Origin: Bacillota bacterium
GTDB taxonomy: Bacteria; Bacillota; Clostridia; Clostridiales; Clostridiaceae
Reading direction: 5' to 3'
Length of the DNA stretch: 64,000 nt
Assembly (NCBI GenBank): GCA_021781745.1
Contig: JAJXWH010000014.1
Coordinates: 46,244 to 110,243 of the forward strand
The position numbers and the translations under genes are program-made. This document shows, piece by piece, positions 23,078 through 34,725 of this stretch. The notes under the pieces are model-generated. The model ran no database searches, was not told where the DNA came from, and saw only the letters and a list, made by a program, of their open reading frames with translations. The first letter of the stretch is position 1. Each line of letters begins with the position of its first letter.

Positions 23078-23117
23078 TAAAGCTATAATAGTACCCAAGT
23101 ATACTATTATAGCTTTA
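23078..23117. terminator. 16-bp perfect hairpin, terminator-like, upstream of the TnpB-like gene
   Basis: TAAAGCTATAATAGTA / TACTATTATAGCTTTA; related hairpin at 24678-24715. Confidence 0.75.
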
Positions 23118-24334: not shown

Positions 24335-24495
24335 TTCATACGGCTGATTCAATCTATCATGAGATAGGTATGCTTAGGTATATAAGCCGAATGGTGAGGA
24401 TATTGAAAAAATATATTAGGTGTTTATACCAACAATATACGATAATCACTCACTAAAGGTCAGTCTAGATGTTGTGTTACTATCTAGCGTATTAT
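24335..24495 (+). ncRNA. Putative guide-RNA scaffold (omegaRNA/tracr-like) downstream of TnpB-like ORF
   Basis: Nested complementarity: CGGCT(24341-24345)/AGCCG(24385-24389); GTGAG(24394-24398)/CTCAC(24449-24453); ATATT(24413-24417)/AATAT(24434-24438); CTAGAT(24465-24470)/ATCTAG(24482-24487). Confidence 0.55.
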
Positions 24496-24677
24496 ATAGT
24501 TTCATTAATTATCTATATAATATGTGAATGCATTGACAAATTGCATACTATAAATAATTCGAGTATGCAAATTTTAAAATTAATTAAAAAGTATAAATAG
24601 AGGTTAAACATTATTTTTCTAGTTTTATGAATTTAAGCTTGATAAAAGTCTACAAAGTTAAGAAAAGTATAGACTAA

Positions 24678-28754: not shown

Positions 28755-30140
28755 ATGTTACTTAGAATGGTACCTCTTTGTGAAAATAATTATAATATGT
28801 GCGAACTTGGACCTAGAGGAACAGGTAAATCACATTTATATAAGGAAATATCTCCGAATTCAATCCTTGTGTCTGGAGGACAAACTACAGTTGCTAATCT
28901 TTTTTACAACATGTCTCAAAGAAAAATTGGACTTGTAGGAATGTGGGATACGGTAGCATTTGATGAAGTTGCAGGTATAACATTTAAAGATAAAGATGGT
29001 ATTCAGATTATGAAAGATTATATGGCATCAGGATCATTTGCAAGAGGAAAAGAAGAAAAAGCAGCAAGTGCATCAATGGTTTTCGTAGGTAACATAAATC
29101 AAAGTGTAGATGTATTATTAAAGACATCACATTTATTTGAGCCATTCCCAGAAGCAATGGCATATGATTCAGCCTTTTTTGATAGAATGCATTTTTACTT
29201 GCCGGGATGGGAAATTCCTAAAATGAGGCCAGAACTTATAACTGATAGTTTTGGTTTTATTACAGATTATTTATCAGAATATTTAAGAGATATGAGAAAA
29301 ACAACATTTGGAGATGTTATAGATAAGTATTTTAAATTCGGAAATAACTTAAATCAAAGAGATGTTATAGCAGTAAGAAAAACAGTATCTGGATTGGTTA
29401 AATTAATATATCCTCATAGAGAATATGAAAAAGAAGACATTGAAGAAATACTAAGATATGCTCTAGTTGGAAGAAGAAGAGTTAAGGAGCAGTTAAAGAA
29501 AATAGGTGGAATGGAATTCTATGATGTTCATTTTTCATATATAGATAATGAAACCATGACTGAAGACTTTATATCTGTACCAGAACAAGGATTAGGTTCA
29601 TTAATTCCAGAAGGAGTATCAAAAGCAGGTCGGGTTTACACAATAGGTGTTGGAGATTCTGGAATGATTGGTGTATATAAATTAGAAACAGAAGTTGTAT
29701 CAGGAAGCGGTAGAGAAGCAAAGGAAAGTATAGAAACAGCATTTAGATATTTTAAAGCAAATAGCAGAAATATAAGTGCTTCCATATCAACTACAACAAA
29801 AGATTATTTAATGCACATTCAAGATGTTAATGGAGTAGGAATGACCCCATCATTGTCACTTGCAGCAATTATAGCAATGTGCTCTGGAGCATTAATGAAA
29901 CCAGTACAAAGTCAATTAGCAGTTTTAGGTTCTGTAAGTATTGGTGGAACGATAAATAAAGTTGAAAGTCTTGCTAATGCATTACAAGTATGTTTTGATG
30001 CAGGAGCAAAGAAAATCCTATTACCAATGGTCAATGCAGCAGACATTTCAACAGTGCCACCAGAATTATTTGCTAAGTTTCAAATAATGTTTTATTCAGG
30101 AGCGGAAGATGCAGTATTTAAAGCATTAGGGGTGCAATAA
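28755..30140 (+). CDS. BrxL-like AAA+ (BREX Lon-like) protein, N-terminal region missing
   Basis: CELGPRGTGKSHLYKEISPNSILVSGGQTTVANLFYNMSQRKIGLVGMWDTVAFDEVAG; FKDKDGIQIMKDYMASGSFARGKEE; RRRVKEQLKKIGGMEFYDVHFSYID; VPPELFAKFQIMFYSGAEDAVFKALGVQ. Confidence 0.88.
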   Translation: MLLRMVPLCENNYNMCELGPRGTGKSHLYKEISPNSILVSGGQTTVANLFYNMSQRKIGLVGMWDTVAFDEVAGITFKDKDGIQIMKDYMASGSFARGKEEKAASASMVFVGNINQSVDVLLKTSHLFEPFPEAMAYDSAFFDRMHFYLPGWEIPKMRPELITDSFGFITDYLSEYLRDMRKTTFGDVIDKYFKFGNNLNQRDVIAVRKTVSGLVKLIYPHREYEKEDIEEILRYALVGRRRVKEQLKKIGGMEFYDVHFSYIDNETMTEDFISVPEQGLGSLIPEGVSKAGRVYTIGVGDSGMIGVYKLETEVVSGSGREAKESIETAFRYFKANSRNISASISTTTKDYLMHIQDVNGVGMTPSLSLAAIIAMCSGALMKPVQSQLAVLGSVSIGGTINKVESLANALQVCFDAGAKKILLPMVNAADISTVPPELFAKFQIMFYSGAEDAVFKALGVQ

Positions 30141-33590: not shown

Positions 33591-33957
33591 GCATTTTAAG
33601 GCTATTTAAAAATTTATTCATCAGCAATAAGCAAACTTTTTTGATAAGTAACAATATGCTTGTCTAAGTTTTGAGATAATTTTATTATAAGTCTATTTCT
33701 TATAGGCAAAAATAAGAGCAACGTATTTAATAAAATTTTTCTTAATAATATCTTTCGCTTGATTCTAAGCGTAGAAAGATAACGCATATTTTCACCTCTT
33801 TTAGCTAAAATTTACTTTAAATTACAATATTATTATGAATTATGCATAATTATTTGTCAATGCAAATTGAGGGTAAATTAATTTTATATAGTTCATGAAA
33901 TTATATAATAAAATGATTAAATAAAAAAATGCTTGAAATAGGTACATTGGGTTTTAA

Positions 33958-34725
33958 TATCCAGAAAAAGCCAACCACTGTTTGCTGTCTTATTTATTAT
34001 TGGTTTGCTAAATAAGAAAAGTAGAATATCCGAAATGTTAATAAGGAAAAGTTTTATATGATTTAATGTTGAGTGAAGAGAAGCAGAGACAATAATATTC
34101 AGAAAAAGCAACCACTGTTTGCTGTCTCATTTATTATTGGTTTGCTAAATAAGAAAAGTAGAATATCTGAAATGTTAATAAGGAAAAGTTTTATATGATT
34201 TAATGTTGAGTGAAGAGAAGCAGAAACAATAATATTCAGAAAAAGCCAACCACTGTTTGCTATCTTATTTATTATCGGTTTGTTAAATAAGAAAAAGTAG
34301 AATCTAAGAAATATTAATAAAGAAAAGTTTTATAAGGTTTAAGGTTTATTGAAGAGAGCAGAAATAATAGTATCCATAAAAAGGCAACCAGTTATAGCTT
34401 TCTTATATACTACTGGTTTGCTAAATAAGAAAAGTAGAATATATGAAATGTTAATAAGGAAAAGTTTTATATGAGTTAATATTGAGGAAAAGAAGCAGAA
34501 ACAATAATATCAATAAAAGGGTAACCGATTATTGCTTTCTTATATACTATTGGTTTGCTAAATAAGAAAAAGTAGAATCTAAGAAATATTAATAAAGAAA
34601 AGTTTTATAAGGTCTAAGGTTTATTGAGGAGAGCAGAAATAATAGTATCCATAAAAAGGCAACCACTTTTTGCTTTCTTATATATTTCTAATCTGCAAAT
34701 AAGAGTTGTGACGTAGAAGTAAAGT
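33958..34725. repeat. Tandem array of ~138-bp repeat units (about 5.5 copies), each with a conserved hairpin
   Basis: Unit landmark 'ca(g/t)aaaaag' at 33962, 34101, 34237, 34375, 34511, 34650 (139, 136, 138, 136, 139 bp). Each has TCTTATTTA...TTGGTTTGC TAAATAAGA or a variant; solo hairpin at about 35058-35091. Confidence 0.93.

Follow-up and report, generated by a model that had tools for sequence, protein, structure and literature searches.

A truncated, nuclease-dead Cas12f and its fused single-guide RNA in Clostridia: probable exaptation from a type V-F CRISPR system

The stretch of DNA analysed here, 64,000 nucleotides of a genome of the Clostridiaceae (assembly GCA_021781745.1, contig JAJXWH010000014.1, positions 46,244 to 110,243 of the forward strand; referred to as the window), encodes a truncated Cas12f protein and, downstream of its gene, a structured guide RNA. 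This Cas12f was probably exapted from a type V-F CRISPR (clustered regularly interspaced short palindromic repeats) system and would act as an RNA-guided DNA binder similar to the TldR proteins, with one fixed guide carried by a fused single-guide RNA. Homology, loss of the nuclease part and of the array, fusion of the RNAs, selection, and conservation of the guide are apparent from comparison of the window with related loci.

A first-pass annotation, made from the letters of the window, had labelled the protein-coding gene as TnpB-like. More exactly, the product is a Cas12f: the open reading frame (ORF) matches the PADLOC Cas12f profile (2.1e-88) as well as the PDB entries 9nzp (2.4e-85) and 8hr5, CnCas12f1 (1.1e-79). 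Among Cas12f relatives gathered from whole genomes at the genus, family and class level, the same truncated form is encoded in two further clostridial genomes, at loci L002 and L003 (the latter in Clostridium sp. LS; L001 denotes the window locus), with 88% and 75% identity to the window protein, respectively. The three proteins share their truncation point and form one clade (support 100/100), which is nested among full-length, CRISPR-linked Cas12f proteins. The loss of nuclease residues, already suspected from the window sequence, was borne out by alignment with full-length relatives. The window protein terminates with HGIMVIV, ahead of RuvC-III and the zinc ribbon, and contains neither a complete RuvC triad nor the zinc ribbon; the RuvC-I aspartate is replaced by isoleucine (EVIFG, as compared to GVDLG of the relatives), and the RuvC-II glutamate is retained (YLEKL). 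In the L002 protein the RuvC-I aspartate is changed to asparagine, and the L003 protein has kept this aspartate but carries lysine instead of the RuvC-II glutamate. Pairwise ratios of nonsynonymous to synonymous substitution rates (dN/dS) among the three truncated genes are 0.24–0.25 (NG86), indicating that the dead Cas12f is still selected as a protein and is not decaying.

The RNA downstream of the gene had been likened to the tracrRNA (trans-activating CRISPR RNA) scaffold of Cas12f, and all of the stems named at the time were confirmed at their places between 24341 and 24487. A CGGCT/AGCCG stem (24341–24345 and 24385–24389) is followed by AATG (24390–24393) and by a central stem enclosing ATATT/AATAT (24413–24417 and 24434–24438) and GGTG/TACC. 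Seven RNAs located beside full-length relatives, including those of L041 and L042 and leaving out the three truncated loci, were used to build a covariance model, which matched the window at 24338–24494 with E = 4.9e-18, L002 with 1.1e-16 and L003 with 3e-16, the next match having an E value of 5.3; the closing CGG/CCG stem forms part of the model that matches the window. Covariation across homologues, proposed as a check by the first-pass annotation, was evident in an alignment of ten RNAs: changes on both sides occur in 19 of 29 base pairs, including five of the six pairs of helix 6 (CTAGAT/ATCTAG), and 93.7% of the cells are paired, as compared to 75% after shuffling and 31–41% with the partner slid; none of 500 shuffles reached the observed values. 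Since the folding energy alone is only mildly unusual (z = -2.57 for 24335–24495, and z = -2.97 for the longer RNA 24338–24552), the case for the RNA is built on comparison. No match for the RNA was detected in Rfam at gathering or permissive thresholds.

The interval first assigned to this RNA (24335–24495) covers a real structured RNA but ends too early, as the conserved RNA also includes an anti-repeat:repeat hairpin and reaches about 24550. Five full-length relatives (L004, L005, L006, L039 and L040) are genuine V-F CRISPR systems with the order effector, tracrRNA, leader, array; their spacers mostly measure 35–39 nt, and their repeats end with GTGAAT or GTAAAT. No array of two or more repeats was found beside the three truncated loci, where a single repeat end is left and the leader is gone as well. 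The surviving repeat end of the window, CTATATAATATGTGAAT, matches those of L005 (..AACTATAATTGATGTGAAT) and L040 (..AACTATATATGATGTGAAT), and the anti-repeat GCGTATTATATAG occupies the position of the anti-repeat in CRISPR-linked relatives. The hairpin of 10–13 bp formed by the two folds in all three truncated loci, and its arms are conserved across the three species (9–10 of 10 and 14–16 of 17 positions identical), as opposed to 7–9 identical positions in the loop of 13–16 nt. Read from the sequence, the anti-repeat and the one repeat end are a naturally fused tracrRNA-crRNA (CRISPR RNA), i.e., a guide RNA made of one molecule. The guide, expected just past 24487 in the first-pass annotation, had to be relocated: the stretch from 24488 is the anti-repeat, and because it pairs with the repeat end at 24513–24529, the guide starts at 24530.

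This start lies directly behind the repeat end GTRAAT, exactly where the spacers of CRISPR-linked relatives begin. The guide reads GCATTGACAAATTGC in the window, GCATTGACCAATTGC in L002 and GCGTTGACCAATTGC in L003. Across the three species, 13–14 of its 15 positions are identical, whereas the flank beyond 30 nt is 41–50% identical; given how far the genes have diverged at synonymous sites, the probability of so few changes is 0.003 for L002 and L003, 0.016 for L001 and L003, and 0.15 for L001 and L002. Truncation, loss of the array and loss of different catalytic residues in each lineage are also what would be seen in a V-F CRISPR remnant that has no function and is decaying. Such a status appears very improbable in view of the open frames and the dN/dS of about 0.24 between all three genes, the conservation of RNA arms, repeat end and guide next to a diverging loop and flank, and the L003 RNA, which is intact despite about 300 nt between ORF and RNA. 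Retention of the structure after loss of the nuclease, as pointed out by the first reading of the window, is accompanied by selection on both RNA and protein.

In the proposed course of exaptation, Cas12f would have shed the zinc ribbon and the C-terminal RuvC portion and thereby the ability to cut, keeping RNA binding and presumably DNA binding. Upon collapse of the array, the anti-repeat of the tracrRNA and one repeat end would have become the two arms of a single hairpin, resulting in a fused single-guide RNA that carries one fixed guide, GCATTGACAAATTGC... By analogy with Cas12f and TldR biology, this RNA is expected to be transcribed and to form a ribonucleoprotein with the dead Cas12f, which would bind DNA beside a protospacer adjacent motif (PAM) and, like TldR proteins, repress by blocking transcription without cutting.

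Searches of the hosts' own genomes for the guide (18 nt with up to three mismatches, 15 nt with one mismatch, and 12- and 10-nt seeds) yielded scattered matches, mostly in coding DNA, which we treated as chance. Guide matches at ars or transport promoters, where the first-pass annotation had advised looking, were not found, and no target was consistent across species. Within the window, the first 12 bases of the guide recur once (33863–33852, minus strand), on the -35 box of a sigma-70-like promoter (TTGACA 33860–33855, N17, CATAAT 33837–33832) preceding a small Spo0E-like ORF. Shuffled sequences are expected to contain 0.04 copies of this 12-mer in the window; however, the site was picked after looking, and the -35 consensus inside the guide makes chance matches to promoters more likely. 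Its 5' flank is T-rich (CAATTT), in contrast to the C-rich PAM favoured by CnCas12f1 according to Su et al. 2024, as cited in PMC13186708. The promoter match was not reproduced in the L002 or L003 genomes, the small Spo0E-like protein has no match in the L002 genome, and the promoters of Spo0E-like paralogues did not show a guide match. A promoter-pattern search of the three genomes gave no full match beyond the window site and nothing indicating a common target, the one-mismatch matches not having been checked gene by gene. The site is a candidate only. An order-wide search with GCNTTGACNAATTGC returned 11 non-self matches, as compared to 2 for the control; these fell into unrelated genes or promoters and were rejected.

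Several points weigh against an RNA-guided function with a fixed guide. The L002 genome lacks any match of at least 12 nt to its own guide, the L003 genome contains a single 12-mer, which is located within coding sequence and differs from the L003 guide, and the 10-nt matches there lie in coding DNA or are self. The clade is known from three members only, and AlphaFold prediction on the three-row alignment was uninformative (pLDDT, i.e., predicted local distance difference test, of 47) and was not used. Moreover, as the guide shows weak self-complementarity (ATGCA..TGCAT), it may owe some of its conservation to a hairpin. Regarding the target, a 6-nt guide is sufficient for repression by TldR proteins (PMC13418256), and the missing long match therefore leaves room for a target in the host.

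The self-complementarity could also mean that the segment behind the repeat (ATGCAttgacaaatTGCAT) serves as terminal hairpin or operator instead of a guide and that the RNA acts otherwise. The 5-bp inverted repeat is found in all three loci, and a GC insertion in L003 preserves the arms (ATGCG/CGCAT), but the hairpin is weak and, when the 3' flank is included, is not the fold of minimum energy in the window. Furthermore, the segment lies exactly at the spacer start of CRISPR-linked relatives, directly after GTRAAT; we rate this explanation as improbable. Somewhat less unlikely is that the same machinery is aimed at foreign DNA, the dead Cas12f silencing a plasmid or phage gene in the manner of Cas12m with one fixed spacer. 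Consistent with this idea, none of the three host genomes contains a good target, and nuclease-dead Cas12f with real arrays occurs on a conjugative plasmid of Enterococcus faecium. The guide differs at positions 3 and 9, which would be third codon positions if the target were coding (Ala-Leu-Thr-Asn-Cys), and next just after position 15; this spacing is compatible with a coding target, the differences being too few for proof. On the other hand, phage and plasmid collections were devoid of significant guide matches (the best, with E of about 2, was dismissed as chance), and immunity would not usually rely on a single frozen spacer. An exapted, TldR-like Cas12f with a fixed guide remains the explanation we prefer; the features concerned are compiled in Table 1.

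Table 1. Location of the dead Cas12f gene, the segments of its guide RNA and the candidate target in the window
Feature	Position	Strand	Basis
Truncated nuclease-dead Cas12f, 350 aa	23208..24260	+	PADLOC, PDB matches, alignment, dN/dS
Guide RNA scaffold, tracrRNA type	24338..24486	+	Covariance model match, covariation
Central stem GTGAG 24394-24398 / CTCAC 24449-24453	24394..24453	+	Covarying helices 2-5
Stem CTAGAT 24465-24470 / ATCTAG 24482-24487	24465..24487	+	Covarying helix 6
Anti-repeat GCGTATTATATAG	24487..24499	+	Pairs with 24513-24525 in three-species consensus fold
Loop between anti-repeat and repeat, replacing leader and array	24500..24512	+	Diverged
Surviving 3' end of CRISPR repeat, CTATATAATATGTGAAT	24513..24529	+	Aligns with repeat ends of L005 and L040
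Conserved guide GCATTGACAAATTGC, possibly to about 24552	24530..24544	+	Three-species conservation
Candidate target, 12-nt match to 5' end of guide	33852..33863	-	Sequence match within window
Small Spo0E-like ORF, 57 aa, behind candidate promoter	33614..33787	-	Pfam SpoOE-like, E 0.0023, below cut-off

In the window and in L002, the cas12f gene is preceded by arsA and by genes of a FAD/NAD oxidoreductase with a rhodanese domain and of an SBF-family transporter; in the window it is followed by genes coding for a DGC-domain protein, a methyltransferase and a MarR regulator. No sigma factor gene is present among the annotated neighbours in the window. A palindrome at about 23080–23116 (AAGCTATAATAGT..ACTATTATAGCTT) between the gene and the ars genes, which was not flagged in a terminator scan, suggests that the gene may be transcribed separately. 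The L003 gene has an MFS gene on one side and crcB on the other, within a cluster that opens with a fluoride riboswitch, after which enolase and DUF190 genes follow. The whole fluoride-resistance cluster of Clostridium sp. LS (L028:6109–14471) comprises three fluoride riboswitches and the genes of enolase, DUF190 protein, MFS transporter, dead Cas12f, CrcB and a CLC channel. The L003 ORF is separated from its guide RNA by a stretch of about 300 nt (L028:10843–11130), an unrelated sequence absent from L001 and L002. As the same guide occurs in arsenic and fluoride settings, it is unlikely to be directed at the local operon. Rather doubtfully, dead Cas12f and its RNA might form a regulator linked to toxic anions, which is carried with arsenic or fluoride resistance genes and represses one fixed promoter through coverage of the -35 box, in the window possibly that of the Spo0E-like sporulation regulator. 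Directly upstream of the candidate promoter, a tandem array of about 5 copies of a 137-bp unit extends from 33955 to 34686. The window also contains a BrxL-like ORF of 461 aa (28755–30140), which begins at position 54 of the BrxL ATPase domain profile and apparently lacks the N-terminal part.

Among the other relatives, L044 consists of a partial gene with an array, and L042 shows a single repeat-like stretch within the sequence piece examined. L041 (G225 C59 17993–19009) encodes a full-length Cas12f-like protein with the RuvC-I aspartate changed to glutamate (GVEFG) and has a single repeat-like stretch, TTATAACTACTTAGAATGTGAAT, after the tracrRNA, possibly representing a second, separate route to the single-guide form. 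A 390-aa Cas12f-like "hypothetical protein" is encoded by the E. faecium plasmid pHT beta (L120:3674–4846; NC_007594.1). It is truncated at the same point as the protein of the window and has lost the RuvC-I motif; 3' of its gene, a tracr-like RNA and a CRISPR array (repeat GTTTTGGAGCTATATAAAACGACATGGTTCTCAAAT, spacers of about 30 nt) are followed by a second tracr-like copy with more repeats. Similar hits came from about 100 plasmid records of E. faecium; judged from L120, in which the locus was read, this appears to be a nuclease-dead V-F system that has a real array and is carried by conjugative plasmids. One L120 spacer, searched against the plasmid records, was absent from every other record.

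Nuclease-dead repressors guided by RNA have already been described as derivatives of transposon TnpB; the route seen here sets out from a genuine CRISPR system, and its steps are readable, from full-length Cas12f with an array via truncated Cas12f and reduction of the array to one repeat to the loop fusion of tracrRNA and crRNA. To our knowledge, no dead Cas12f of CRISPR origin has been reported together with a natural single-guide RNA, and a literature search, whose coverage excluded most subscription journals, did not retrieve one. The RNA parallels, in nature, the engineered single-guide RNAs of Cas12f, the protein of 350 aa is a candidate for a compact RNA-guided DNA binder, and the vicinity of arsenic and fluoride resistance genes raises the testable question of what the dead Cas12f controls.

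Dead Cas12f has also been exapted for transcription in the system of PDB entry 9n9c ("Nuclease-deactivated Cas12f"), in which dCas12f works with a sigma factor in RNA-guided transcription; the window protein matches 9n9c only distantly (E = 1e-20), and its gene has no sigma factor gene among the annotated neighbours. Cas12m (type V-M) likewise binds without cutting and silences, but is a different Cas12 subtype and operates with CRISPR arrays. With the CnCas12f1 branch of V-F systems (8hr5, 9nzp), the window shares homology of the protein over its whole length and of the tracrRNA scaffold, anti-repeat position and repeat end; it differs by lacking array, leader, RuvC-III, zinc ribbon and the RuvC-I aspartate, and by a guide RNA of one molecule. 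Since the array and a full RuvC are missing, the locus is not a V-F CRISPR system. It resembles TldR in being a nuclease-dead relative with inactivated RuvC, an adjacent guide RNA with a fixed guide, and presumed RNA-guided repression. TldR genes differ in adjoining fliC, csrA or opp genes, which the window gene does not, and the target of the latter was not found. Its protein derives from CRISPR-linked Cas12f rather than from transposon TnpB, and its scaffold is a fused tracrRNA-crRNA; because of this descent, we describe the system as TldR-like and do not class it as TldR.
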